DNA of 64,000 nucleotides from a bacterium. Its GTDB lineage: Bacteria; Electryoneota; Electryoneia; Electryoneales; Electryoneaceae. Under the pieces are notes generated by a model. That model did not search any database, had not been told where the DNA came from, and was given only the letters and a program-made list of their open reading frames with translations. The stretch spans positions 62,001 to 126,000 of the forward strand of contig JAHLLH010000005.1 of assembly GCA_020444265.1 (NCBI GenBank), given 5' to 3'. The translations under genes and the position numbers were made by a program. Shown here in pieces: positions 23,925 to 38,201 of the stretch; positions within the stretch are counted from its first letter, which is position 1; every line of letters begins with the position of its first letter.

Positions 23925-25841
23925 ATGAACAACCTGTTCAAAGAATTTCTGAGCGCGCTGTGGGAAGTATTCAAGCTTCCTTTCTTTCTGGTCGCAGAAG
24001 GCTTTCGCCGTCTCTTCCGCCTCGGTTGGCGTAAAATCACGATGCTGACCATCGCTGCCTTCATCCTGACGTTTGTCGTCCTCTTCGCCTTTGTCGAGAC
24101 GACCTCCCAACCGCAGTTTTGCGGTTCATGTCACCTTATGGAACCCTACATCGAAGCGTGGAAGACCTCCAGTCATGATGAGATCTCTTGCATGGCCTGC
24201 CATGCGAAGGAAGGTGTTTCCGGCTTCATTGAGACTAAATTCACTGCTTTATCCATGCTGGTCAACTATGCAACGGGTCTCTACAAACGATCCAAGCCAT
24301 GGGCTGAGATTGATGACAAAAACTGTCTGCAATGCCATGAAACCCGTCTATTGGACGGTAAAATCACCATGGAAAATGGAGTTCACTTTGATCATACCCC
24401 GCACTTGACCGAGAAACGACGTGGACGACAACTGCGCTGTACCTCCTGCCATTCGCAGATTGTACAGGGCGAACATATTTCGATTACCCCGACCACCTGT
24501 TTCCTCTGCCATTTCAAGAACCTGGAGAAGGAAGATCGGGCCGAATTGGCAAGCTGCACCAAGTGCCATGATGCACCTACCGCCGACCAGGCGAAATATG
24601 ATCACACCCAGATCGCACAGCAGGATGTCCCCTGCCAGACCTGTCACCAACCGATGTGGCAGGGTGAGGGGCTCGTGCGCAAGGAACGCTGCGGTGCCTG
24701 CCACAGCGAGGTGGATCATATCGAGCGATTCGATGACCTCGAGTTTATCCACGAATGGCACATCGAAAAGCGCAAAGTCGACTGCCAGCGTTGCCATGAC
24801 CCGATCGAGCACCACCAGCCTGACCTCGAACAGACGGTATCCGGGAGTTGCTCAAGCTGCCACAGCGATCCGCATGCCCCCAAGCTGGCAATCTACAAGG
24901 GCCAGGGGTCCAGGTTGGTCGAAGGCGAGCATCCCGATGTGATGTTCGAGAGTGGTGTCGCCTGTATATCCTGCCACAAGGATCCCTTCTCAATGACTGC
25001 TGAGGCACGTATCGGCGACAACACCTGCGAACCTTGCCACGCAGAATCCTACAAGAAGTTGGCGGACAACTGGAAAGAGGGGTTTGGTCGACGGATCAGC
25101 ACACTCGAAAGGCGTCTGCGACAGGCGGGAGCCCATCCCAGGATCGAGGATGCACGTCATGACCTCGCATTGCTGAAGAGCGGCGGAGCCTGGCACAACC
25201 CGGAGTATGCACAACTAATCCTTGCTCAGGTTGAGAAGGTGTTGAACCAATCCGGTGTCGCCACCAGCAGCACAAAAGTGCCTGCCGGTAGCCGTGCGTG
25301 CCTCACCTGCCACAACGGGATTGAAGGCATCGAAGTCGGGACTGAGCTCTCCGCATTTGACCATTCCGCTCACCTGAGTGAACGCACTATTGTCTGCACC
25401 ACGTGCCATGTGGGCGGGGAGCCCGAGGATACGGCCCACGGCCGCCGTCGACCTGTCGAACAAAGCTGCGCAACGTGTCACCATGATAGTGAGGTTGCTG
25501 AAGCGCAAGACAACTGCGCCCCCTGCCACCTCCCCTCACGCAGCCTCTACCTGGGTGAGGTAGATGGGGTCGACTCCGCGCCAAGTCCGATGGCCGATGC
25601 TGCTATGGGTTGCACCGACTGCCATGATGGTAGCGAGGGCTATGCCTCCCCGACGGATGACTTCTGTTTTGCATGCCACGAGCAAGAGGTCATCGACGAC
25701 TGGAAATTTGTCCGCGGCGAGTTGGTCCGCGAACTGAAACTCCACCCCCCCGTCGCAGGACCGGGCATGCTGGCGCGAGAGGATCACGGTCGTGCGGTCC
25801 ATCATCCTGATCTTGCAAAGGATATCCTTGGGCTTGAATAA
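23925..25841 (+). CDS. Membrane-anchored 18-haem c-type cytochrome with NapC/NirT-like start
   Basis: 638 residues. A basic N-terminus is followed by one membrane helix (about 37-58) and then FCGSCHLMEPYIEAW, the NapC/NirT-type first haem region. Eighteen CXXCH sites are present, the last in CFACH near residue 583. A haem-free helical stretch (about 385-435) divides a 12-haem part from a 6-haem part. NapC-type proteins take electrons from quinol; here the haem chain is far longer than in NapC (4), so a periplasmic wire is likely. No shared operator is visible upstream, unlike the other units of this locus, and the ribosome site is weak. Confidence 0.93.
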   Translation: MNNLFKEFLSALWEVFKLPFFLVAEGFRRLFRLGWRKITMLTIAAFILTFVVLFAFVETTSQPQFCGSCHLMEPYIEAWKTSSHDEISCMACHAKEGVSGFIETKFTALSMLVNYATGLYKRSKPWAEIDDKNCLQCHETRLLDGKITMENGVHFDHTPHLTEKRRGRQLRCTSCHSQIVQGEHISITPTTCFLCHFKNLEKEDRAELASCTKCHDAPTADQAKYDHTQIAQQDVPCQTCHQPMWQGEGLVRKERCGACHSEVDHIERFDDLEFIHEWHIEKRKVDCQRCHDPIEHHQPDLEQTVSGSCSSCHSDPHAPKLAIYKGQGSRLVEGEHPDVMFESGVACISCHKDPFSMTAEARIGDNTCEPCHAESYKKLADNWKEGFGRRISTLERRLRQAGAHPRIEDARHDLALLKSGGAWHNPEYAQLILAQVEKVLNQSGVATSSTKVPAGSRACLTCHNGIEGIEVGTELSAFDHSAHLSERTIVCTTCHVGGEPEDTAHGRRRPVEQSCATCHHDSEVAEAQDNCAPCHLPSRSLYLGEVDGVDSAPSPMADAAMGCTDCHDGSEGYASPTDDFCFACHEQEVIDDWKFVRGELVRELKLHPPVAGPGMLAREDHGRAVHHPDLAKDILGLE

Positions 25842-25847
25842 GGAAGT

Positions 25848-25860
25848 TTGGGGTTCCTAA
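25848..25860 (+). promoter_or_regulatory. Cytochrome-locus operator, variant copy B
   Basis: TTGGGGTTCCTAA resembles TTAGGGTTCCCTAA with one base missing. It lies 26 bases upstream of a -35 hexamer, unlike the fixed 4-base spacing at the other copies, so it is the weakest member. Confidence 0.35.
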
Positions 25861-25886
25861 CTTTATACTTATTAACTACTTAGCTC

Positions 25887-25915
25887 TTGTACGGCTTTAA
25901 GATATTCGCTATACT
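25887..25915 (+). promoter_or_regulatory. Promoter of the porin-cytochrome unit
   Basis: TTGTAC (25887-25892), 17 bases, TATACT (25910-25915). This would drive the genes from 26052 to 29770 with a leader of about 130 bases. Confidence 0.5.
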
Positions 25916-26051
25916 ATTCACAAGATGTGGCGAGTACAAACAGGGTTGCACCCGCGAGTACAATTCCGGGAAATGATCAACCCTTCGAGATTCGTCACTG
26001 GTCGCCAGCAGTTGATCCGGCCTGGGAGCCGGGGTGAGGTAAGGAGGGAGT

Positions 26052-27308
26052 ATGAAGCGAGGGTGTGAACGGTCCATGGCCCTGGTCCTGGCAGCAGTCC
26101 TGCTGCTCGGGTTGGCGGTCTCCCCCGCACACGCCGGCATCCGCCTGATGGGTTCCGTTGGCGCGAATGGTTACGCGTACAACGATGCCCAGAACGAGAA
26201 CCATTTCTGGCTTCAGCAGAGCACACGTCTCTCGCTCTACCAGACTGGTGGTCCCCTGTCGGTCCATTTCTCCGGCGGGTATCTCGGCGACAATGCGGAC
26301 GATTTTTCCACTTCCGGTGAAGCTCGTTTTTACAAAGGGTACATCCAGTACAGCAAGCTGGGGTCGGCCCTGACCGGACGTGCCGGGCGCTTTTTCCTGT
26401 ATGATGGTGTGGCCCTGGGTGTACTCGATGGTGCCCAGGTTGGCTACCGGATCAACCGGATGATCGGGGTGAAGCTTTTTGCTGGCCTGATGGGTCCAAT
26501 GAATCGTTTGTTTGAGTTCGAGGATCCAGCCAAAGCGATGAGCTTCGGCGGTCGCATTGACATCTCCCCGGCAAATTGCCTGATTGCCGACAAGGGCAGG
26601 ATGGCTGTCTCCTTCACCTCGCAGCAACGTGAAGAGATCGGCCTGACCCGTCAGTTGGTCGGGCTGCACACGTACCACACATGGATGACAGGCGCGAGCT
26701 GGTTCAACACCGTCCACCTTCGTCCCGGCGGCACGATGCTGCGCAAATGGATGAGCCGTGCACGTTATCTGACGCACGACTGGAACACCCTTGCGGAACT
26801 AGGCATCTACACACCGAACGTTGCCGACGAATCCTGGTTCAATGGCTTCAGCACCAGCACAAGCATCCGTCTCCGTTTCGCGGTGGACAGAATGCTGGTC
26901 GCTGAGCGCTGGGGTGTTGGCCTTGAAGGCGCCTATCTGACCGCTGGTGGCAAGGGCGGGTATCGGGCAGGTCCAGTGGTTACTACCCCGGTTGGCCAGG
27001 TCGGTTACCGGATGAGTGGTGGCGACCGTGCCATCAGCTCTGGCCCCTGGGTCAGCCTGAGATATGCCCCGATGCACGGGGTCGAGATGTATGCTTACGG
27101 TCAGATGGTCTCCTACGAGTGGGATGCCTTCGACATTGAGAACGACGAGTTGACGATGGTCCATGCAGGCCTGCGTTACACTCCGGCCCAGCTGCCGTCG
27201 GTCACCCTGTCAGGCGAGTACCAGATCTACCAGACGCCTCAGTTTGACAACGACCGCCGTGGTCTTGGCGGTCTTACATGGCGTTTTGATACGGGGAGGA
27301 CACGGTGA
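26052..27308 (+). CDS. Outer-membrane beta-barrel (porin-like), likely porin-cytochrome partner
   Basis: 418 residues. The signal peptide ends at AHAG (about residue 29) and AAGGAGGGAGT precedes the ATG. The mature protein alternates polar and aromatic residues in many short strands (for example GRAGRFFLYDG, VSLRYAPMHG) and ends LGGLTWRFDTG, close to a barrel-type terminus. It contains no haem motif. In porin-cytochrome conduits a barrel of this kind surrounds multiheme cytochromes and lets electrons cross the outer membrane. The next gene, a 12-haem cytochrome, starts on its stop codon (TGATG), which ties the two together. No sequence family is recognised. Confidence 0.75.
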   Translation: MKRGCERSMALVLAAVLLLGLAVSPAHAGIRLMGSVGANGYAYNDAQNENHFWLQQSTRLSLYQTGGPLSVHFSGGYLGDNADDFSTSGEARFYKGYIQYSKLGSALTGRAGRFFLYDGVALGVLDGAQVGYRINRMIGVKLFAGLMGPMNRLFEFEDPAKAMSFGGRIDISPANCLIADKGRMAVSFTSQQREEIGLTRQLVGLHTYHTWMTGASWFNTVHLRPGGTMLRKWMSRARYLTHDWNTLAELGIYTPNVADESWFNGFSTSTSIRLRFAVDRMLVAERWGVGLEGAYLTAGGKGGYRAGPVVTTPVGQVGYRMSGGDRAISSGPWVSLRYAPMHGVEMYAYGQMVSYEWDAFDIENDELTMVHAGLRYTPAQLPSVTLSGEYQIYQTPQFDNDRRGLGGLTWRFDTGRTR

Positions 27309-28186
27309 TGAACCGGAACTATTCCCTTCTCCTGATTGTTCTGCTTGTCCTGGCCGCCACGCTCGGCTTCAGCAAGCCAGAACAGAAAACAACCCTTCAT
27401 TTTGATCATGGGTTGCACGTCGCAGACATGGAAATGGGTTGCACCGACTGTCACGATGGCATCCGCTCTCTGGGTGTTGGTGAACGTGCCATGCCGGATC
27501 ATGATGTCTGCTCCATGTGCCATGTGGAAGTCGATGATTTTGACGCCTGCGGCACTTGCCATGTCGATCCTGATAATCCAGTAGCCTGGCCTGGGGTGCA
27601 CGGGATGTACGAGGGCTTTGCCCACAACATCCACAACGAAGCCAAGGTCAACTGCGACCAGTGCCACGGTACCATCACTGAGATGGGTCAGGAACCGTCG
27701 ATGATCGCGATGAACGACTGCCAGAGCTGCCACATGGTGCAGAATGCCTCGCTGGAATGTGGCATCTGCCACCAGGGTGAAAGCCCGCAGCCGTGGGATC
27801 ACAAGCTGGCCAGCTGGCATGGTGACCATGGTCTTGAAGCGAGTTTCGGCACAGCGGACTGCGCAAGCTGCCACACCCAGGCAACCTGCGACGAATGCCA
27901 CCAGGGCGAGCTGCTCGATGGTAAGCCCCACCCGGCAGGATGGGAGTTCAACCACTTTGTCGAAGCCTCCATGGGTTCCGACTGCCTCGTTTGCCACGAG
28001 ACACGCAGCTACTGCACCGACTGCCACCGTGCGATGGCACCCCTGCCCCATCCTTTGGGCCCAGGCTATGCCAACTTCAACGATGGTGGGGATCATGTAG
28101 ATGAAGCACGGGCGTTTGGTGAGACCTGCCTCTCCTGCCATGATGTTGGCGGAGACGATCCCACCTGCGCACGCTGCCACGAGTAA
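27308..28186 (+). CDS. Twelve-haem periplasmic c-type cytochrome
   Basis: 292 residues from the ATG overlapping the porin stop. The signal peptide (about 5-21) ends near LGFSKPE, with no lipobox. Twelve CXXCH sites occur in under 270 residues, about one haem per 22 residues, so the protein is nearly all haem-binding: CTDCH, CSMCH, CGTCH, CDQCH, CQSCH, CGICH, CASCH, CDECH, CLVCH, CTDCH, CLSCH, CARCH. The opening THLHFDHG-like region and paired sites resemble cytochrome c7/c3-type repeats. By position it is the best candidate for the cytochrome inside or beneath the barrel. Confidence 0.93.
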   Translation: MNRNYSLLLIVLLVLAATLGFSKPEQKTTLHFDHGLHVADMEMGCTDCHDGIRSLGVGERAMPDHDVCSMCHVEVDDFDACGTCHVDPDNPVAWPGVHGMYEGFAHNIHNEAKVNCDQCHGTITEMGQEPSMIAMNDCQSCHMVQNASLECGICHQGESPQPWDHKLASWHGDHGLEASFGTADCASCHTQATCDECHQGELLDGKPHPAGWEFNHFVEASMGSDCLVCHETRSYCTDCHRAMAPLPHPLGPGYANFNDGGDHVDEARAFGETCLSCHDVGGDDPTCARCHE

Positions 28187-28196
28187 GGAGGGTGAG

Positions 28197-29198
28197 ATGA
28201 AGATGACAGGACTGATTCTTCGGAGCGGAACGCTCGCCCTGATGTTGGGCCTGCTGGTGCTGTTCACCGCAGGTTGTGGCAGCGAGACCAATCCGGACTA
28301 TGTTGAGCCCGATGGCGACTACCATGCCTTCGGCGACCTTGAGAACCACGGTAGTTACCTCGTCGAGAATGAGTACGACTTCTCGGAGTGTGTTACCTGC
28401 CACGGGACAACGGCAAACGGTGTGACACGGTTAAACGGTCAAGCCTCCGGCGTGAATGGGACATCGGTTCGTTCCTGCTACCGTTGCCACAACGGAGAAA
28501 GCCATCAGGTTCTTTTCACGACTGCGATGGAGCACACCCAGACGGTCCGTGAGAGCGGCTGGAGCTTTGAGGAGTGCATCGTCTGCCACTCAACAACTCC
28601 GGTCACTGGTGGAGTCAGCTTCGGCGGATCCTGCAGCAGCACAGAGTGCCATGCGGGAGACGCAGGCGGCCCGAATTCCTGCAACACCTGCCATGGAGAT
28701 TTCATGGCCGATCCGACCGATCAAGCTGGTTGGGCACCACCGGAAGGGATCTGGGCAGAAGGGGTGAACGATCCCGGTATCGGTGTTCACCAGGCTCACC
28801 TGAACCCTCAATCCGGTTGGTTTGAACCGGTCGCATGCGCAACCTGCCACATTGTACCCAGCAGTTTGGGTTCAAACGGTCATATTGACTCGGAAACTCC
28901 GAACAGTGCAGAAGTTATTCTCCGAGGGCTTGCACGAAATGGAAGTGGATTTGCCCAGTATAATGAGGCAAATGCTACTTGCTCTTCGGTATATTGCCAC
29001 GGAGACGCGACTCCTGTCTGGACGGATCACAGCGGTGCATCACGTGCGTGCGGCAGTTGCCACGGGATTCCCCCGGCAGCTCCCCATCCTCAGGGTGGTT
29101 CCTGCGCGGATTGTCACAGTGAAGTGATTGACGCTTCCATGACCATCATCGCACCGGCACTGCACATGAATGGTGAAGTGGACGTTCAAATTCCATAG
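28197..29198 (+). CDS. Lipoprotein cytochrome with seven CXXCH and two CX4CH haem sites
   Basis: 333 residues from the ATG at 28197 behind AAGGAGGGTGAG. The signal peptide ends in FTAGC, a good lipobox. Seven CXXCH motifs (CVTCH, CYRCH, CIVCH, CNTCH, CATCH, CGSCH, CADCH) and two CX4CH motifs (CSSTECH and CSSVYCH) are present. The mix of CX4CH and CXXCH with the surrounding HSGASRACGSCHGIPP pattern matches the Geobacter CxxxxCH...CXXCH domain found in outer-surface cytochromes. It begins 10 bases after the 12-haem gene. It is likely the lipid-anchored exit cytochrome of the conduit. Confidence 0.9.
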   Translation: MKMTGLILRSGTLALMLGLLVLFTAGCGSETNPDYVEPDGDYHAFGDLENHGSYLVENEYDFSECVTCHGTTANGVTRLNGQASGVNGTSVRSCYRCHNGESHQVLFTTAMEHTQTVRESGWSFEECIVCHSTTPVTGGVSFGGSCSSTECHAGDAGGPNSCNTCHGDFMADPTDQAGWAPPEGIWAEGVNDPGIGVHQAHLNPQSGWFEPVACATCHIVPSSLGSNGHIDSETPNSAEVILRGLARNGSGFAQYNEANATCSSVYCHGDATPVWTDHSGASRACGSCHGIPPAAPHPQGGSCADCHSEVIDASMTIIAPALHMNGEVDVQIP

Positions 29199-29239
29199 GG
29201 ATTGATTCATAAAGAACCATGACGAAGGAGGTTTCACGT

Positions 29240-29770
29240 ATGCGTCGTATCGTCTTGTTCAGCATCATGCTCCTGCTTGTCGCAGCAGGCGCAACCTACG
29301 CCCAGGACAACGAGTTTGTCGGCACGAAGCGTTGTGCGATGTGCCACAAAGCCGAAAAGGGCAACATGATTTTTGAGAAGTGGCAGGAAGGCCCGCACGC
29401 CAAAGCATTCGCAACCCTCGCTTCAGAAGAAGCCGCCAAGGTCTATGCCGACCTCGGCAAGAGCGGCAATCCGCAGGAAGATGCCGACTGCCTGAAGTGC
29501 CATACCACAGGCCACGGCATGGACGCTGCGCTGACAGCGAAGATCAGCCCGGAAGATGGCGTGAGCTGTGAACAGTGCCACGGTGCTGGTGGAGCATACT
29601 GGAAGAAGAACATCATGGAAGATCGTGATGCGTCGATTGCCAACGGTATGGTCGCCGATCCGGGTGCCAACTGCACCAGTTGCCACAACGAAGAGAGCCC
29701 GACCTATAAGGCTTTCAATTTTGAAGAGTTCTGGCCGCAGATCGAGCACTCCAGCGCCGCAGGCGAATAA
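29240..29770 (+). CDS. Tetrahaem cytochrome of the c554 type
   Basis: 176 residues from the ATG at 29240, which has AAGGAGG at ideal spacing; a start 21 bases upstream is less likely. The cleaved signal peptide ends at ATYAQ. Four sites: CAMCH, CLKCH, CEQCH, CTSCH. The opening FVGTKRCAMCHKAE and WQEGPHAKAF, with the long gap between haems one and two, match the cytochrome c554 family of soluble periplasmic carriers. It is the last gene of the porin unit and precedes a terminator. Confidence 0.9.
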   Translation: MRRIVLFSIMLLLVAAGATYAQDNEFVGTKRCAMCHKAEKGNMIFEKWQEGPHAKAFATLASEEAAKVYADLGKSGNPQEDADCLKCHTTGHGMDAALTAKISPEDGVSCEQCHGAGGAYWKKNIMEDRDASIANGMVADPGANCTSCHNEESPTYKAFNFEEFWPQIEHSSAAGE

Positions 29771-29794
29771 CCCTGCTAAAGCATTGATTTCATT

Positions 29795-29820
29795 AGCCCT
29801 CCGTTTTCACGGGGGGCTTT
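29795..29820 (+). terminator. Rho-independent terminator
   Basis: AGCCCTCCG and CGGGGGGCT pair (one G-T) around TTTTCA and are followed by TTT. It closes the porin-cytochrome unit. Confidence 0.75.
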
Positions 29821-29941
29821 CTAATATCTATCTTTGCACTATTATTCACATTAGAATGCTGTTAGTATGTTCGTATTTTCACAATTAATCTCCTTTCTAT
29901 AAGCAGAGTTAGCGGAACAATTTTCGCGTTCCCCGGGAGCT

Positions 29942-29955
29942 TTAGGCTCCCCGAA
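29942..29955 (+). promoter_or_regulatory. Cytochrome-locus operator, copy C
   Basis: TTAGGCTCCCCGAA, 11 identical leading bases with the copy at 32693, and the same 4-base distance to the -35 hexamer. Confidence 0.6.
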
Positions 29956-29959
29956 TCCC

Positions 29960-29989
29960 TTGTACTCGGTTGTGTAGGTATTGTAAGAT
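29960..29989 (+). promoter_or_regulatory. Promoter of the UGA-containing cytochrome and rhodanese unit
   Basis: TTGTAC (29960-29965), 18 bases, TAAGAT (29984-29989). The layout is identical to the promoter at 32711-32740. The leader to 30143 is about 145 bases, with no ORF seen in it. Confidence 0.55.
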
Positions 29990-30142
29990 ATTGTCGGTGA
30001 GTCGTACGGGGTTTCTCCATCCTCTTCATTCCCCTCTTCCACCAGATTCATGTGAAGAATCACGCGAAGCAGATCCCGGCAGAACACCTGCCCTGCTTGG
30101 TCGCTTGATCTGCATTGTGAAGCTTTGCGCAAGGAGAAAGAT

Positions 30143-31501
30143 ATGCCAACGTCTTGGACCGCGAGGACCATCCTGCTCGTTTCCATTGCTGCCCTGCTGG
30201 CGATTCTGGCCGGTTGTGCGAACGACAACGAGTTGATTTCAGATGTCCCTGGCGCTGGGACTGAACAACTGAACGGTTGCATCGGCTGCCATACCGATGA
30301 AGCCATGTTGCAGGCCACTGCGGATCCCGTCGACGAGCCACCGCCGTCGTCGGGCGAGGGTTGAGGCGGCGAAGTCCCCCAGCTGGAAGCTTGGGAAAAA
30401 GTCTTGATCGCTGGTAATGGTGGGGATGCCTTTTTCGAGTCCCGTCACGGTTCCATCTCTTGTGTCGCCTGCCATGGCGGTACGGACGGGGTCAACGACA
30501 AGGTTACCGCACACGAAGGGATCGTTGCTGATCCGACCCAGCAGGCGGCAGAATCCTGCGGCGGATGCCACGCACAGATTGTGGCCAACTTCCCGACAAG
30601 CCTGCATGCGAACTTTAATGGTTACAAAACGCTCTTTGAAGAACGTTCCGGCATTGCTTTCGAGAACCACCCTGAGATCGAAGAAGAATTCGCCGGGGAG
30701 TGCGGAAAGTGCCATGTGACCTGTGGTCAGTGCCATGTCAGCCGGCCTGTTGCAGTCAAAGGTGGGCTGGTCCGTGGTCACGAGTTCCTCTCGACTCCGT
30801 CCCAGAGTGACAACTGCACCGCCTGCCACGGTAGCCGTGTTGGGGAAGAATACACCGGGTCGCGTGAAGGATACGCTGCTGATGTGCATTACATCCCGAA
30901 CACGATGCGTTGCAATGAGTGCCACACGGGCGCTGAGATGCACGGTGATGGCATGGTCTATGGCACACGCTACGAGTCGAACCTGATGCCGCGCTGTGAA
31001 GATTGCCACAGCGGTACAGAGACCGAAACGGCAAACAACTTCCACAATCAGCACTGGGGCGAGCTCTCTTGCCAGGTCTGCCACTCGCAGGACTACAAGA
31101 ACTGCAACAAGTGCCATGTAGGCGGAACCGGTATTCGTGAGCCCTCTTACCTCAGTTTCAAGATCGGAAAGAACCCGATCCCGGGGGAACGTGAGTATGA
31201 GTATGTCACCTTGCGTCACATACCCATTGCCCCCGATACATACGAGCCTTGGGGAATTGGCGACCTGACGAACTACGAGGCACTACCAAGCTGGAAGTAC
31301 GCAAGCCCGCACAACATCCGTCTGCTGACAAATCGTACCAGCGAGGATGGTGAAACCGCGAGCTGCGGACCCTGTCACAACTCGCCGGACGAGGGCGGTT
31401 TCTTCCTTCGTCAGGCGGATCTCGACACCATGAGTGTCCGTGAAGCGGCTGCAAACGCAGCCCTGATTGTCCCGGATGGCCCCCCACCTTGGGGTAGATG
31501 A
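30143..31501 (+). CDS. Eleven-haem lipoprotein cytochrome with in-frame UGA (candidate selenoprotein)
   Basis: A 452-residue product if UGA at 30362-30364 is read as an amino acid (residue 74). AAGGAGAAAG precedes the ATG, and the signal peptide ends in the lipobox LAGC. The first haem site CIGCH is before the UGA; ten more follow in the same frame: CVACH, CGGCH, CGKCH, CGQCH, CTACH, CNECH, CEDCH, CQVCH, CNKCH, CGPCH. The residue context is SGEG-(UGA)-GGEV. No ribosome site precedes the next possible start (TTG 30404), which argues against two genes. A SECIS-like hairpin starts 10 bases after the UGA. The alternatives are a recent nonsense mutation or a sequence error. It is the first gene of a unit with the rhodanese lipoprotein. 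Confidence 0.75.
30375..30396 (+). promoter_or_regulatory. Candidate bacterial SECIS hairpin
   Basis: TCCC (30375-30378) pairs with GGGA (30393-30396). After a CC/T internal loop, AGCT (30381-30384) pairs with AGCT (30388-30391), leaving the apical loop GGA. The loop begins 20 bases after the UGA and starts with G. Bacterial SECIS models ask for an apical loop about 16-37 bases downstream with a G near its start. Confidence 0.45.
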
Positions 31502-31574
31502 TAAGCAGGTAAAACGATAGGGTAGGATCGATCCGTCCCCGCATGGACCGGTCGAACACAAAGGAGTGCGCAAC

Positions 31575-32537
31575 ATGATGAAGTACAGCAAGCTTTTAGC
31601 CTGGATGCTGGTGATGATCCTCGCGTTTGGTGTGGTTGGTTGCTCGGACGATGATGATGATGATACGACAGGCCCGACAACCACGAACTATTTTGAAGAT
31701 GCAGCAGAAGTCGGCTTCACCTACTTCAACGACTACAGCACCGCGAACATCCCGGCCGCAACCGTCTACGACAACATGCTGAACGATGTTGACATGTTCA
31801 TCATCGACTGGCGTCGTACCGAGGATTACAACGCTGGCCACATTGAAGGCGCTGTCGATTGGGCAGCCCCGGACCTCGTTGACAACATGGATCAGCTTCC
31901 GACTGACATGCTGATTGTCAACGTCTGCTACAGCGGCCAGACCGCTTCACAGGTCACCTCCGCCATGCACCTGATGGGCTACGACAACGCCCGTAATATG
32001 CTGTTCGGAATGTGCGGCTGGGTCGCTGAAGGTTCCTGGAGCAACCTGACCAGCAATGGCTATGACCTCGAGACCACCAGCAACACCATGACCGAAACCT
32101 TCGACTACCCGGTCGATCTCGATGTGGACGAGGCTGACCTCGATGCAGCTCTTGCCGATGCGATTGATGCCTATTTGACCGCAGGCACGAAGAACAAGAG
32201 CGCGGAAGCTGTCTACAACATGATCGCTGATGGCGAGGATGTTTTTGTCATCAACTACTGGCCTGTCGCGGATTACGAAGCCGGTCATATTCCGGGCGCA
32301 TTCCAGCTGACCCCGAAGAGCTGGGACATGGATGTCCTGGCACAGATCCCGACCGATATGCCCGTCGTGATCTACTGCTACACCGGTCAGACTTCGAGCC
32401 AGGTGACCATGTTCCTCAACACTCTCGGCTACGATGCGTACAGCCTGCTGTTCGGGATGAACTCGATCAACGATACCCACCCGAGCAACCATGGTTACAA
32501 CCCACCGGAGACGGACTACCCGGTCGTTACCGAGTAA
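31575..32537 (+). CDS. Lipoprotein with two rhodanese domains
   Basis: 320 residues from the ATG at 31575, with AAGGAG eight bases upstream. The signal peptide ends in VVGC, followed by a run of Asp (SDDDDDD), a typical flexible lipoprotein linker. Two rhodanese-like domains (about 55-165 and 195-310) both keep an active-site Cys loop: NVCYSGQTAS and IYCYTGQTSS. Rhodaneses carry sulfur or selenium as persulfide or perselenide. A rhodanese lipoprotein beside porin and multiheme cytochrome genes recalls ExtH of the Geobacter ext clusters, although ExtH-level homology cannot be judged here. It is the second gene of the unit with the UGA-containing cytochrome, followed by a terminator. Confidence 0.9.
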   Translation: MMKYSKLLAWMLVMILAFGVVGCSDDDDDDTTGPTTTNYFEDAAEVGFTYFNDYSTANIPAATVYDNMLNDVDMFIIDWRRTEDYNAGHIEGAVDWAAPDLVDNMDQLPTDMLIVNVCYSGQTASQVTSAMHLMGYDNARNMLFGMCGWVAEGSWSNLTSNGYDLETTSNTMTETFDYPVDLDVDEADLDAALADAIDAYLTAGTKNKSAEAVYNMIADGEDVFVINYWPVADYEAGHIPGAFQLTPKSWDMDVLAQIPTDMPVVIYCYTGQTSSQVTMFLNTLGYDAYSLLFGMNSINDTHPSNHGYNPPETDYPVVTE

Positions 32538-32560
32538 TCCATCCATGTTTCGATCTTCCA

Positions 32561-32590
32561 CCGCCCGGCATCTGCCGGGCGGTTTTATTT
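32561..32590 (+). terminator. Rho-independent terminator
   Basis: CCGCCCGGCA (32561-32570) pairs perfectly with TGCCGGGCGG (32573-32582), followed by TTTTATTT. Confidence 0.93.
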
Positions 32591-32692
32591 TGCTAAGTGT
32601 AACTCTTTTCACAATTAGATGTACCCCTCCCCCTCGATGCAACCAGAGTAAGTCAACCCTAAACATACAAGATTTCAAAAGATTAGGTCGAA

Positions 32693-32706
32693 TTAGGCTC
32701 CCCAAA
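32693..32706 (+). promoter_or_regulatory. Cytochrome-locus operator, copy D
   Basis: TTAGGCTCCCCAAA, nearly identical to copy C, 4 bases before the -35 hexamer. Confidence 0.6.
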
Positions 32707-32710
32707 AATC

Positions 32711-32740
32711 TTGCACCTTATAGTGCAATCTTGCTAAGAT
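32711..32740 (+). promoter_or_regulatory. Promoter of the 19-haem cytochrome gene
   Basis: TTGCAC (32711-32716), 18 bases, TAAGAT (32735-32740). The leader to 33003 is unusually long, about 255 bases. Confidence 0.55.
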
Positions 32741-32902
32741 TCCACTGAAGCGATGGGGACTTTTAGCCGCAGCAACGGTTGATCGCTCAAATCGTTTCAA
32801 CCTGTTGAAATAACAGATACCTATGTACTGTCGTTGAACCTTTTTGGTTGCTCTTTTGCACTCCGTGCTGAATGATGCCCCCCATCATTTGGCACTCCCT
32901 GC

Positions 32903-32943
32903 CGACAAGGGGTGCGGTGGCTGCCCCCACCGTACCCCTGTCG
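32903..32943 (+). promoter_or_regulatory. Long stable hairpin in the leader of the 19-haem cytochrome mRNA
   Basis: CGACAAGGGGTGCGGTGG (32903-32920) pairs with CCACCGTACCCCTGTCG (32927-32943), with one bulged A and one G-U pair around the loop CTGCCC. AGCTTTTGG follows. It lies 60 bases before the start codon and could be an attenuator or an mRNA stabiliser. Confidence 0.6.
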
Positions 32944-33002
32944 AGCTTTTGGATTGGATACTCGGGAAGCTGTCGCATCGCGACTTTAAGGCGGGTCTCA
33001 CC

Positions 33003-35585
33003 ATGAAGAACATGAACCGTAAACATCTTGCGCTGGGATTGATTGTCCTGCTGGCAATGGTGGTTTCGATCACAGGAACGCCGCAGCTCAGTAAGGCCCA
33101 ACCAGCCTCTGATTGCCTTAGCTGTCACAACGACGCTTCCATGGAGTCAATGGACGGCGACAACATCGGTGTTCTCAGAACAGTCTATGAGAACAGCGTG
33201 CACGGCATGTTCGATTGTGTTGACTGCCACACCCAGGCAGCGGATTGGGAAGACATCCCCCACTTCGACACCTACCGCAAGGTGCAGTGTTCGGATTGCC
33301 ACGACGAGGCGACGGATAGTTTCCGTGGCTCCTTTCATGGTACCGCACTCGCAAAAGGGACTCGTAACGCCCCGGAGTGTTCATCCTGCCATGGTGTGAA
33401 GGGTGACCCGCACAGCATCCATTCGCTCGACCTGCGTTCGGCGGAAAATTCCTGCCGGATGTGCCACTCCACCATGGCCGACCGTTACGACACCTCCGTG
33501 CATGCCTCCGCCGCAAAGCAGGGTAAGGACAGTCCCGGTTGCGTGAGCTGCCACCCGACTCATAGCGATGCCCTGCCACCCTCGGTCGGTGCGATCAACA
33601 ATCTCTGCGAATCCTGCCACCAGGGGACGATGGAGCAGATCTGGTCCGGTGAGCACAAGGATGCGATGGCAGAGCTTCAGGGCCAGATGTCCTGCGCCTC
33701 CTGCCATGATGTACATGCGACTCACCGTCCTGAAGTCAGCGAAAACACCTTCAAGGCATGCGCCACCTGCCATCCAGGGTACATGGACCAGTTTGATGGT
33801 TCGGTACATGAGGAGTTGATTGATGGCGGGGGAATGAACTGCGTCTCCTGCCACCGTACCCACCAGGTGACCGATGCGACTGAAACGGAAAATCTTGGTT
33901 GTGGTGCCTGCCACAGCGATGTGGAAGAGCATTACCGCAGTAGCGCCCATCGTATGGCCCGTCTCCGTGGAGACGAAGTCGCGGCGGACTGTGCCGACTG
34001 CCATGATGGCCATCATGTGCTGCATGCCAATGATCCGAAGAGCCCGGTCAACCGTCGTAATATTCCTGAGATGTGCGGCGAGTGCCATGGCAACGAGTCG
34101 GTCATTACCAGCGACTATGTCCGTCTACCCATTTCCCTGCCGAATTATTCGAAATCGGTCCACGGCCAGGGCCACCTGACAGGCAACGAGGAAACAGCAG
34201 TTTGTACGGACTGCCATGGCACCCATAACCTTCAGAGCGCGGCCGAACCGACCAGCATGATCAACAAGCGCCACCTCGCGCAAACATGTGGGCAGTGCCA
34301 TTCTGATGAATCCTCCGAATACAGCAACTCAATACATGGACGTGCAGTTGCCCATGGTATTTATGATAGCCCGAGCTGCACAGACTGCCATGATGAGCAC
34401 TTGATTCTTCCTCCAAGCGATCCTGAGTCAAGCGTCGCCCCGGCACATATCGCGGACCAAACCTGTGCCAAGTGTCATGAAGATCCTGAAATGGCTGCCC
34501 GCTATGGTCTGCCTCAGGAAGTGGTTGAATCCTACCAGGATTCGTATCACGGATGGGCTGTGGCACGTGGTGGTAATGCGGTGGCCAATTGTGTGGATTG
34601 CCACAACACGCATGACATTCGCAGCCGGATAGACCCGACCTCGAGCATCCACCCCGATCAAGTCGTTGACACATGTGGTAAGTGCCACCCACAGTCGAAC
34701 GCGAAGTTTGCGGCCAGCTACAGCCACATCCTGGCGCGTGACAAGATGATGGTCCACGACTACGTGCGGATCATTTACATCATCCTGATCACCGTCGTGC
34801 TTGGCGGCATGGCAGTGCACAACATCATCATCTTCATCCACGAACTGAAGGTGCACCACCGTAAGCAGAAGAAAGCTTCGGCAGTTCGACGCATGACTCG
34901 CAATGAAGTGATCCAGCACATGGTTCTCTTCATCAGCTTCACTGGCTTGGCGATCAGCGGTTTCGCGCTGCGCTTCCCGGATGCCTGGTGGGTCCACTTG
35001 CTGGAGAACATGGGGATGACGGAAGAAAGCCGTCGCCTCTTCCACCGTGGCATGGCGGTTCTGCTGATTGGTGGTTCCTTCTACCACATGTACTACCTGG
35101 TCTTGACCAAGCGTGGACGCATGCTGCTGAAGGCCCTCTTCCCACGTGTGCGTGACGTTGCGGAAGCCATTGGTAATGTCTCCTACTACCTCGGCCTGCG
35201 GAAGCAGAAGGTCACCTTCGGGATGTACGACTACACCCAGAAGGCAGAGTACTGGGCCCTGATCTGGGGAACAGCGGTGATGGGTCTGACCGGACTGATC
35301 CTCTGGTTCCCGACCCTCTTCACCAGTTGGCTGCCAGCCTGGGTGGTCCGTGTCAGTGAAACGGTTCACTATTACGAAGCGATCCTGGCAGTCGCGGCGA
35401 TTGTCATCTGGCATTTCTTCTTCACCATCATCCTGCCGAAAGAGTACCCGATGAGCTTTACCTGGCTGGATGGCGAAATGCCCAAAGAGCACTGGGAAGA
35501 GCACCACGGTCTTGAAGCAGAGGATACGGGCGTTGAACCGGAGACAATTCGTGGTGAACTGGAAGGTGGCGAGGGGAACCATTAG
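33003..35585 (+). CDS. Nineteen-haem cytochrome fused to a membrane cytochrome-b-like module
   Basis: 860 residues from the ATG at 33003; AAGGCGGG lies upstream. A cleaved signal peptide is followed by nineteen CXXCH sites spread over about 540 residues, with recurring SVHG or SxHx segments that could supply distal His ligands. The C-terminal 300 residues hold five membrane helices with His residues placed as in cytochrome b561/DUF4405-type subunits (VIQHMVLF, FHRGMAVLL, FYHMYYLVL, IVIWHFFF). This would join quinol chemistry in the membrane to a periplasmic haem wire in one chain. The tail is acidic. The stop codon lies inside the operator of the next, paralogous gene. Confidence 0.92.
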   Translation: MKNMNRKHLALGLIVLLAMVVSITGTPQLSKAQPASDCLSCHNDASMESMDGDNIGVLRTVYENSVHGMFDCVDCHTQAADWEDIPHFDTYRKVQCSDCHDEATDSFRGSFHGTALAKGTRNAPECSSCHGVKGDPHSIHSLDLRSAENSCRMCHSTMADRYDTSVHASAAKQGKDSPGCVSCHPTHSDALPPSVGAINNLCESCHQGTMEQIWSGEHKDAMAELQGQMSCASCHDVHATHRPEVSENTFKACATCHPGYMDQFDGSVHEELIDGGGMNCVSCHRTHQVTDATETENLGCGACHSDVEEHYRSSAHRMARLRGDEVAADCADCHDGHHVLHANDPKSPVNRRNIPEMCGECHGNESVITSDYVRLPISLPNYSKSVHGQGHLTGNEETAVCTDCHGTHNLQSAAEPTSMINKRHLAQTCGQCHSDESSEYSNSIHGRAVAHGIYDSPSCTDCHDEHLILPPSDPESSVAPAHIADQTCAKCHEDPEMAARYGLPQEVVESYQDSYHGWAVARGGNAVANCVDCHNTHDIRSRIDPTSSIHPDQVVDTCGKCHPQSNAKFAASYSHILARDKMMVHDYVRIIYIILITVVLGGMAVHNIIIFIHELKVHHRKQKKASAVRRMTRNEVIQHMVLFISFTGLAISGFALRFPDAWWVHLLENMGMTEESRRLFHRGMAVLLIGGSFYHMYYLVLTKRGRMLLKALFPRVRDVAEAIGNVSYYLGLRKQKVTFGMYDYTQKAEYWALIWGTAVMGLTGLILWFPTLFTSWLPAWVVRVSETVHYYEAILAVAAIVIWHFFFTIILPKEYPMSFTWLDGEMPKEHWEEHHGLEAEDTGVEPETIRGELEGGEGNH

Positions 35586-35595
35586 ACTCCCCTAA
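35582..35595 (+). promoter_or_regulatory. Cytochrome-locus operator, copy E
   Basis: TTAGACTCCCCTAA, overlapping the stop codon of the 19-haem gene. At the standard spacing the -35 (35600-35605) is poor and the -10 is GATATT (35624-35629), so an activator would be needed. Confidence 0.5.
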
Positions 35596-35699
35596 CTGCA
35601 AGCATTCCACGACTTTGAATTGCGATATTTGTAACAACGCAGCCCATTGGGGGGTCGTGCTGCTCTTTGGACAGATTTGTAACGAGTGGGGTCGTTCCC

Positions 35700-38201
35700 A
35701 TGAGTAGGTATGTTGCTGTAATCGCTCTGGTACTTGGCGTTTTGATTGCCGTGCCGACGCTCGCGCAGGATGATGATCTTTGCCTCGCTTGCCATGACGA
35801 CCCCACCCTTGAACGAGTTGAGGGAGGGATCACCACGTCGCTGTATGTCAGCGGCGAGATGGTCCCTCACTCTGTTCATGATGGTCTCTCCTGCACCGAT
35901 TGCCACACAGCACTCTACGATGTCGAAGATTTTCCGCATGACCCGCACATTGCCGGGGTCAGCTGCGCCGACTGCCATGATGAAGCGTTTGAAACCTTCA
36001 TGACCGGTTTTCGGGACCACCTGATTGACCGTGGCTTCCCGAATGTCCCCGGCTGCACAAACTGCCATGGCACTCATGAGATCTCGGAAACCGCCGATAC
36101 CCGTGCGGTATGCGGCATCTGCCACAGTCAGCAAAGACAAGGATTCCAGACATCGATCCACGCCCAGGCAGTGGACGAGGATGGGCACCCGGAAGTCTCT
36201 TGCACATCCTGCCATGATGCACACGACAAAACCCGCCGCGGCAAGCTGCTGCCGAAGGATTGGCGGATTGACATGGTGGACAACTGCCTCGCCTGCCACC
36301 AGAACCAGTCCCACAACTACCTCGATTCCCGTCACTATGCAGAAGTAAAAAAGGGAAACGAGAAAGCACCCATTTGTGTAGACTGCCATAGTGAACATGC
36401 CATCCATACGATTGATGATCCGCGCAGCAAAGTTTATGTCGACAACCTCGATAACACCTGTGACTCCTGCCATCCCGGACATAACGCGTCGATCCATCGT
36501 AAGTCTGGAGTAGATGATCGTCTGATGACCTGCGTCGCTTGCCACACCGGTCATGTGACCGACATGACCGATGCTGAAGGCAATGTCATCAAGGGTGAGC
36601 TGTCGAACACCTGCAACGAATGCCACGGTGAGATGCGCCACGAAAAGGAGAATCTGGCGCACGGTCAGGCAATGCTGGTGGACCCGGATGGCGGCGAGGC
36701 AAATTGCTCAGACTGCCATGTTTACCACTGGAAGATGAGCGACAGTGCTCATGAAGGTAAAGCAGAGGAACGTCTCGCCTGCATAAACTGCCATGCATCT
36801 GAGAACAGTGACTGGGAACGTAGCGCTCACGGCATTGCCTTCCGAAAGGGGCACACCGAAGCACCGACCTGTGTCACCTGTCACGGTGATCGTAATGTTG
36901 AGCGGATCAGCAGCCAGTTTGATGGGCAGAGCATCCTCAGCCTCTGCAGCTCCTGCCATGCGAACCGCGAAATGACCATGCAGTTCCAGCTCAATCCCAA
37001 TGTAGTAAAGGGTTATCTCAGCACCTATCACGGGCAGGCGTACACCCTCGGCTACCAGGGCGAGGAATTTGCAACCTGTGTCAGCTGTCATGACAACCAC
37101 CTGATTCTCCCGAGAGATAATCCGGAATCAACGATTTCGCAGCAGCATATCATTCAGACCTGTGGCCGTTGCCATGAGGATGCCAATGCAAATTTCGTGG
37201 GCCAGTTGCAACATTACGACCCGATGACCGCCGAGGAGCATCCCATCCTCGACATCATCCATGTCTTCATGGTCTGGTTGCTTCGTATTACGTTGACGAT
37301 CTTCGGGGTACACACCCTGCTCTGGCTGCTACGTGCATGGATCGACCGTATTCGTTTCGGTAAACCGAAGAAGATCAAATCGGAATGGCGGTATCGTCGC
37401 TTCGGAGTGTATGAGCGGATTCTGCACGCGATGGTGATGGTCAGTTTCCTGATGCTGGCAATGACCGGGCTGCCCTTGAAGTACAGCCATACGGAAGCCT
37501 CCCAGTGGATTGCATCGCACCTGCTGGATTTACGGACCATGGCGATCATGCACCGGATCGGTGCCACCATCACCTTCGGTTACTTCGCCCTGCACCTGGG
37601 TGGTCTTGCGGCCAAGCTTGCACGCAAGAAATACACATGGAAGCAGCTGCTATGGGGCGAGGAAAGCCTCGTGCCACAACCACGTGATGCGGTCGAGTTC
37701 GTCCAGCATGTCGGCTACTTCCTCGGTCTGGCTCAAAAGCCGAAGTTCGGGCGCTGGACCTACTGGGAGAAGTTCGATTACATGGCGGTCTTCTGGGGTG
37801 TCGCGGTGATCGGTGCCTCCGGACTGACCCTCTGGTTCCCAGAGTTCTTCACCCGTCTGCTGCCAGGATGGATCATCAATGCGGCACACATCATCCATTC
37901 GGAAGAAGCATTGTTGGCGACCGGGTTCATCTTTACGATCCACTTCTTCAACGAGCACCTTCGCCCGGACAACTTCCCGTTCGACGAGGTCATTTTCACC
38001 GGAAGCTTGAGCGCCCATTACATGATTGAAGAGCGTCAGGGCTGGTACGAGAAGCTGAAGAAGGAAGGCAAGATTGAGAAGATCAAGGTGAAACCGATGC
38101 ACCTCTTCCCGCGCACGCTACTCTACATCTTCGGATTCACTGCACTGGCCATAGGTTTAGGCCTGTTGGCCCTGATAGTGATGGGAACATTTACTGGCTA
38201 A
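35700..38201 (+). CDS. Seventeen-haem cytochrome fused to a membrane cytochrome-b-like module
   Basis: 833 residues from the ATG at 35700. The signal peptide ends at TLAQDD. Seventeen CXXCH sites cover about 500 residues, followed by about five or six membrane helices with His residues in typical b-haem places (RILHAMVMV, IMHRIGATI, FALHLGG, FTIHFFNEH). The order of domains and motifs such as CHDNHLILP and RWTYWEKFDY/TFGMYDYTQKAEYW show it is a diverged paralogue of the preceding 19-haem protein. A last helix near the C-terminus is absent from that paralogue. The ribosome site GTGGGG lies in the loop of a small AACGA/TCGTT hairpin. Confidence 0.92.
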   Translation: MSRYVAVIALVLGVLIAVPTLAQDDDLCLACHDDPTLERVEGGITTSLYVSGEMVPHSVHDGLSCTDCHTALYDVEDFPHDPHIAGVSCADCHDEAFETFMTGFRDHLIDRGFPNVPGCTNCHGTHEISETADTRAVCGICHSQQRQGFQTSIHAQAVDEDGHPEVSCTSCHDAHDKTRRGKLLPKDWRIDMVDNCLACHQNQSHNYLDSRHYAEVKKGNEKAPICVDCHSEHAIHTIDDPRSKVYVDNLDNTCDSCHPGHNASIHRKSGVDDRLMTCVACHTGHVTDMTDAEGNVIKGELSNTCNECHGEMRHEKENLAHGQAMLVDPDGGEANCSDCHVYHWKMSDSAHEGKAEERLACINCHASENSDWERSAHGIAFRKGHTEAPTCVTCHGDRNVERISSQFDGQSILSLCSSCHANREMTMQFQLNPNVVKGYLSTYHGQAYTLGYQGEEFATCVSCHDNHLILPRDNPESTISQQHIIQTCGRCHEDANANFVGQLQHYDPMTAEEHPILDIIHVFMVWLLRITLTIFGVHTLLWLLRAWIDRIRFGKPKKIKSEWRYRRFGVYERILHAMVMVSFLMLAMTGLPLKYSHTEASQWIASHLLDLRTMAIMHRIGATITFGYFALHLGGLAAKLARKKYTWKQLLWGEESLVPQPRDAVEFVQHVGYFLGLAQKPKFGRWTYWEKFDYMAVFWGVAVIGASGLTLWFPEFFTRLLPGWIINAAHIIHSEEALLATGFIFTIHFFNEHLRPDNFPFDEVIFTGSLSAHYMIEERQGWYEKLKKEGKIEKIKVKPMHLFPRTLLYIFGFTALAIGLGLLALIVMGTFTG

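Follow-up and report, generated by a model that had tools for sequence, protein, structure and literature searches.

Genes and features of the locus

Analysis of the window (the whole stretch of 64,000 nucleotides that was analysed, to which all positions below refer) revealed on the forward strand a gene for a multihaem c-type cytochrome that carries an in-frame UGA, and directly 3' of it a gene for a tandem rhodanese. The features of this unit are as follows.

30131..30136, + strand: AAGGAG, Shine-Dalgarno sequence of the cytochrome gene, seen in the sequence 6 bases 5' of the ATG at 30143
30143..31501, + strand: predicted selenocysteine (Sec)-containing 11-haem c-type cytochrome with the lipoprotein signal LAGC25, read through UGA74 (frame open apart from the UGA; homologues with UGA)
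30362..30364, + strand: UGA codon 74, predicted Sec, in the context GEG-U-GG (UGA in 50 of 50 loop-carrying, site-covering homologues)
30377..30395, + strand: SECIS-type hairpin with the apical loop GGA at 30385-30387 and one C.U mismatch (register B of the family hairpin)
31575..32537, + strand: tandem rhodanese lipoprotein, matched by Pfam PF00581 in two stretches (86.3 bits); its active-site loops read CYSGQT and CYTGQT
32560..32583, + strand: terminator-like hairpin (10 pairs, 9 of them G-C) and a T-rich tail after it, where the two-gene unit probably ends

Translation of the cytochrome frame with TGA read as U gave 452 residues with U74 as the single internal U. The terminal codon of the gene is a regular TGA (31499-31501), which indicates that UGA is not simply reassigned in this genome. 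Haem-binding CxxCH motifs are located at residue 46 and, after UGA74, at residues 107, 139, 187, 194, 225, 257, 285, 310, 321 and 408, while C25 of the lipobox LAGC is the only cysteine outside the haem sites. The product gave a match to Pfam Cytochrome_C7 (43.9 bits), and the 11 CxxCH motifs together with the lipobox identify it as a multihaem c-type cytochrome. An earlier note on this DNA had described one haem site and a lipobox 5' of the UGA, ten haem sites 3' of it and an unshifted frame, all of which were seen again on re-reading 30143-31501. The same note had stated that no ribosome site precedes the next start, and this was borne out for the in-frame TTG 30404, GTG 30581 and GTG 30716, none of which has a Shine-Dalgarno sequence.

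The best start of the rhodanese gene is the ATG at 31575. The terminator-like hairpin at 32560-32583 is to be read as weak evidence for the end of the unit, since a consensus scan yielded about as many sites in shuffled sequences.

The Sec gene is located within a run of multihaem cytochrome genes that extends over 23925-38201. It encodes, among others, a 913-aa and an 844-aa protein that resemble each other and each carry a multihaem part joined to a formate-dehydrogenase-gamma-like cytochrome b. A 418-aa frame at 26052-27308 has a signal peptide and a barrel-like sequence and gave no match in Pfam or NCBIfam, and a frame 50% identical to its product was found near the Sec gene of locus L038.

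The UGA site among homologues

Homologues were collected by searches that covered the relatives of the window, 84,980 species genomes, the same phylum, the class of Malonomonas and 386 genomes (earlier relatives included). Alignment of the sequences revealed 50 distinct loci, the window included, that carry the Sec loop and cover the site. All 50 have UGA at the position of residue 74; a Cys form was sought among these loop-carrying, site-covering copies and was found in none of them (0 of 50). The flanking residues (GxGUGG) do not change on either side of the UGA, the motif at the site being mostly GxGUGG with the variants PGUGG, GEGUAG and GEGUAA among the 50 copies, and the frame is unshifted across the UGA in every copy. 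The copies with UGA belong to Krumholzibacteriota, Neomarinimicrobiota/Fidelibacterota, Calditrichota and Desulfuromonadales, to records labelled Deltaproteobacteria and to unnamed phyla.

Ten distant or derived homologues (L093-L098, L100, L101, L103 and L129) contain no stop, and all ten are without the Sec loop, showing Tyr, a gap or unrelated residues instead. The distant relatives have dropped the whole Sec loop rather than exchanged the Sec residue. Three sequences that end before the Sec site (L025, L099 and L130) were left out of the counts, and L125 was rejected as a stop-free copy, its UGA being located just beyond the matched stretch. No plasmid homologue was found.

A conserved hairpin 3' of the UGA

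The hairpin of the window, 5' CCC-C-AGCU / GGA / AGCU-U-GGG 3', spans nt 16-34 when the U of the UGA is counted as 1, and its GGA loop starts 20 bases past the UGA. The earlier note had put forward this hairpin for its position and its loop; both were found as described, but as a stand-alone argument the hairpin did not hold, the window copy alone being at the level of chance (z -0.43 against synonymous shuffles) and not significant against dinucleotide shuffles (z +0.10 for 44 nt and -1.29 for 25 nt).

Over 31 copies of the family the hairpin gave a mean z of -2.43 against synonymous codon shuffles, while the control, 1023 windows along the same genes, gave a mean z of -0.10 with a standard deviation of 1.0. 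Comparison of the copies revealed two main registers, register A with the loop GUU/GGU at nt 21-23 and register B with the loop GGA/GUU at nt 24-26, and a few copies with six-base loops such as AGUUUC, GGUCAG and CGUGCC; in all copies a G is present within the first two positions of the apical loop. The eight-pair stem was 92.6% paired in the 22 gapless copies of register A, and seven of its eight pairs showed compensatory changes on both sides. The covariation score, 0.581 for register A, fell to 0.07-0.16 when the partner strand was slid by 1-3 bases and was reached by none of 500 shuffles; this count refers to register A, and the window copy belongs to register B. The covarying family hairpin is located where a SECIS element is expected, and there is good evidence that the predicted RNA structure is under selection within the coding region at this position. 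The Rfam model SECIS_1 (RF00031) matched nowhere, the controls included, and is therefore uninformative, and a scan of the region with Rfam gave no match.

Selenocysteine machinery of the genome

Searches of the same genome identified a tRNA-Sec (59.3 bits; ARAGORN SeC tca), SelB (331.5 bits), SelA (541.7 bits) and SelD (362.4 bits), so that the products of selA, selB, selC and selD are all encoded. The selD gene (L061 1501-2430; G000:C4:219402-220331) contains an in-frame UGA near the N-terminus, in the context CAG-U-ASK. SelD of this genome is thus probably a selenoprotein itself, and decoding of UGA as Sec at further sites in this cell is very probable.

Among the genomes with the UGA-bearing cytochrome that were tested, selA was above the cut-off in 32 of 32. 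It was also present in seven of eight genomes with loop-less homologues, which indicates that selA is necessary and not diagnostic.

The rhodanese partner

The description of the partner as a double rhodanese was confirmed by the two PF00581 stretches, and its link to the cytochrome proved stronger than had been claimed. A search of the open frames with the rhodanese profile placed a rhodanese directly 3' of the cytochrome, or fused to it, in 50 of 50 UGA copies, while none was found beside the ten loop-less relatives in the roughly 1.5 kb of flanking sequence retrieved. Two rhodanese domains per partner are the rule, but four are present in several relatives and L044 has six. Locus L087 carries its rhodanese domains as a C-terminal fusion to the cytochrome, and L088 and L089 carry them N-terminally within one frame. 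The type of the partner varies, being GlpE-like in the window and mercaptopyruvate-sulfurtransferase/ExtH-like in Desulfuromusa, and the pairing is still kept. The unit often consists of just two genes, the rest of the ext cluster known from Geobacter being missing, and several genomes have the pair on its own.

The maximum likelihood tree constructed without the Sec loop indicated two changes of Sec state, and in both of them the loop and the rhodanese changed together. Locus L129 was placed inside the Sec group on a long branch with moderate support (91/80) and has neither the loop nor the rhodanese. Judged from this pattern of genomic association, the Sec cytochrome and the rhodanese are very likely coupled in function.

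A regulator was located directly upstream of the pair in L039, L041, L049 and L058, of the TetR family in three of them and of the MerR family in one, hinting at an inducible unit. Upstream of the pair in the window no TetR or MerR regulator was seen.

Fold and conserved residues

Searches of the PDB with the family profile gave octahaem tetrathionate reductase (1sp3) as the best match (1e-11), followed by MccA (1e-9). The AlphaFold2 model of the cytochrome (pLDDT 83, pTM 0.77), in which the Sec loop is of low confidence, was aligned to 1sp3 over residues 99-451 with 258 residues aligned, Z 9.2 and rmsd 4.0, and the next chain reached Z 3.7. The Foldseek match to 1sp3 is weak by itself (E 0.05), and the likeness is therefore a lead, not a proof. 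Folds of the HAO/NrfA type were rejected, their scores being far under that of 1sp3.

Alignment of the Sec copies revealed nine non-haem His (102, 124, 155, 213, 249, 267, 301, 304 and 390), present in at least 36 of 38 copies; with eleven haems to be served, about two haems would thus be without a conserved distal His. Arg232, Arg276 and Arg358 are invariant in the Sec copies, while among the nine loop-less rows Arg232 occurs in none and Arg276 and Arg358 in at most one each. From this pattern we infer that the three arginines may form an anion-binding active site around Sec. The loop-less relatives, the ten loci named above, make up a sister group without rhodanese, in which no NCBIfam model among those scanned scored above its cut-off.

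Interpretation and alternative explanations

The UGA in 50 of 50 copies, the covarying SECIS-type hairpin, the Sec machinery and the link to the rhodanese all support the reading of the UGA as Sec that the earlier note had proposed, and on this comparative evidence UGA74 is almost certainly decoded as Sec. Of the checks suggested in that note, all those that could be carried out agreed with this reading. A pseudogene, a sequencing error or a general reading of UGA as some other amino acid would look the same if one UGA in one draft genome were all there was to see. Conservation of the UGA across phyla excludes a read error or a pseudogene, the finding of this codon at an identical site in 50 independently assembled copies refutes this explanation as a whole, and the 11 haem sites are intact, the gene ends in TGA and the Sec machinery is present; its probability is practically nil. 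It is also highly improbable that the frame holds two genes of an operon, one for a small monohaem lipoprotein that terminates at the UGA and one for a decahaem protein that starts 3' of it, in which case the conserved hairpin would serve another role. UGA does act as a normal stop in this genome, the cytochrome gene included, but the downstream part has neither a ribosome-binding site nor a signal peptide, and export is required for the attachment of haem to a decahaem part of this kind. Moreover, the frame is unshifted in all copies, the residues of GxGUGG are invariant on either side of the UGA and the hairpin at the SECIS position covaries. The two-gene option was likewise weighed in 2007 for the Geobacter cytochrome ExtKL, where no SECIS had been found (PMC1914089).

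With Sec as the preferred reading of the UGA, we propose that the cytochrome is an exported, probably lipid-anchored 11-haem selenoprotein that would work with the downstream tandem rhodanese. In decoding UGA74, SelB and tRNA-Sec would be assisted by the adjacent 3' hairpin. The exported rhodanese would take sulfane sulfur from thiosulfate, polysulfide or some other donor of it and so form a cysteine persulfide, this sulfur would be handed to Sec to give a selenenyl sulfide (Se-S), and electrons from the haem chain would release sulfide and restore the selenolate, or the flow might be reversed and the enzyme act as an oxidase. The joint reading, Sec at UGA74 together with a rhodanese-coupled redox function, appears likely, while chemistry of sulfane sulfur at Sec is for us an even call. 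It is from the partnership and the distant similarity that we infer the substrate and the direction, and Sec itself would have a catalytic role. Somewhat more tentatively still, the family may represent a strictly Sec-dependent class in which a rhodanese persulfide is delivered to a Sec wired to 11 haems, i.e. a two-gene, sometimes one-gene, extracytoplasmic sulfane-sulfur oxidoreductase of several phyla.

The main rival to this sulfur mechanism is a function in selenite and tellurite metabolism, in which the same selenoprotein would act on a selenium or tellurium oxyanion as part of a reduction or detoxification module like that of the Geobacter ext cluster. The ExtM model is matched weakly by 11 of 19 members (best 1.2e-13), the ExtH model gave a weak match to the partner in Desulfuromusa (55.7 bits), and a TetR or MerR regulator is located upstream in four genomes, such regulators being common upstream of detoxification genes. 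In the ext cluster, too, a rhodanese (ExtH) is found together with ExtM and the Sec cytochrome ExtKL, and loss of ExtI impairs the reduction of selenite and tellurite (PMC5877670). However, the ExtM and ExtH matches are far under the curated cut-offs, the unit is often of two genes only and without the remaining ext cluster, and the closest fold is that of tetrathionate reductase, and we regard an oxyanion substrate as rather unlikely. A further alternative is that the main role of Sec is to ligate one haem axially and tune its potential, the chemistry taking place elsewhere than at Sec. The nine retained non-haem His for eleven haems would agree with such a role, but the loop that holds Sec is Gly-rich, flexible and modelled with low confidence, the loop-less relatives retain nearly all of the same His, and the strict tie to a rhodanese points to chemistry, all of which makes axial ligation improbable.

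The UGA cytochromes apparently add a new selenoprotein family: the UGA does not vary, the SECIS covaries and a Cys form was found in none of the loop-carrying copies. The strict rhodanese partner points at a function in which selenium chemistry would be combined with sulfur transfer by the rhodanese and a long haem wire. Because the UGA splits the genes in routine annotation, the family is easily missed as two truncated genes, and through such missed genes the capacity for sulfur and selenium redox reactions would be under-counted in Krumholzibacteriota, Neomarinimicrobiota, Calditrichota and Desulfuromonadales. Malonomonas rubra DSM 5091 (L052) is a cultured carrier and makes the family testable.

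Comparison with known systems

The statement of the earlier note that no Sec-containing multihaem cytochrome is firmly established calls for a correction. ExtKL (GSU2937-2936) was predicted as a Sec cytochrome in 2007, with no Cys form known according to PMC1914089, and was taken up in 2018 within the Geobacter ext cluster (PMC5877670, PMC6148476). A 2026 review also lists in its table a Sec form, annotated in GenBank, of the tetrathionate-reductase family (TIGR04315), and describes the GSU2204 family as MtrB/PioB-type beta-barrel proteins that contain CXXCH (PMC13188914). Selenium determined by mass spectrometry is not reported for Sec multihaem cytochromes in the available text of PMC1914089, PMC5877670, PMC6148476 and PMC13188914.

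Like the window cytochrome, ExtKL (NF040886) is a multihaem cytochrome that is exported, carries an in-frame UGA and has a rhodanese (ExtH) encoded in its cluster. The two differ in that ExtKL has five haems before the UGA, none after it and the motif IPDGUPTPNR (12 copies compared), while the window cytochrome has one haem before, ten after and GxGUGG. Membership in ExtKL was rejected, the window cytochrome showing no NF040886 match at E 0.1 (cut-off 250 bits), and this genome contains no NF040886 match above the cut-off. The twelve ExtKL copies (L104-L115) have a near-identical stretch after the UGA (TGACCGAC..CCAACCGACTGGTTCTGTCGGT), which folds into a stem interrupted by an internal loop.

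ExtM (NF040943) is alike in the weak matches given above and, by eye, in haem spacing, but no Sec is reported for it and the scores of the members are far below its cut-off of 800 bits. Octahaem tetrathionate reductase (1sp3; TIGR04315) fits the fold of the haem region (residues 99-451) best, and differs in having eight haems where the window family has eleven and in that the Sec loop is outside the aligned part; membership in TIGR04315 was rejected, since no member reaches 375 bits (best 1.1e-9). The tandem rhodaneses (GlpE-like, mercaptopyruvate sulfurtransferase and ExtH) share with the partner two PF00581 stretches with active-site Cys loops, while the partner of the window family is exported, is associated one-to-one with the Sec cytochrome, and has up to six domains (L044) or is fused to it.

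In NCBIfam of June 2026 no member of the family scored above the cut-off of any model, and the family corresponds to none of the models discussed above. By family names and motifs the family is missing from the 2026 selenoproteome table (PMC13188914), the comparison having covered freely accessible papers. The UGA cytochromes are thus apparently an undescribed selenoprotein family, whose architecture is new and which is strictly paired with a rhodanese, and the family falls within a known kind, the Sec-bearing c-type cytochromes.
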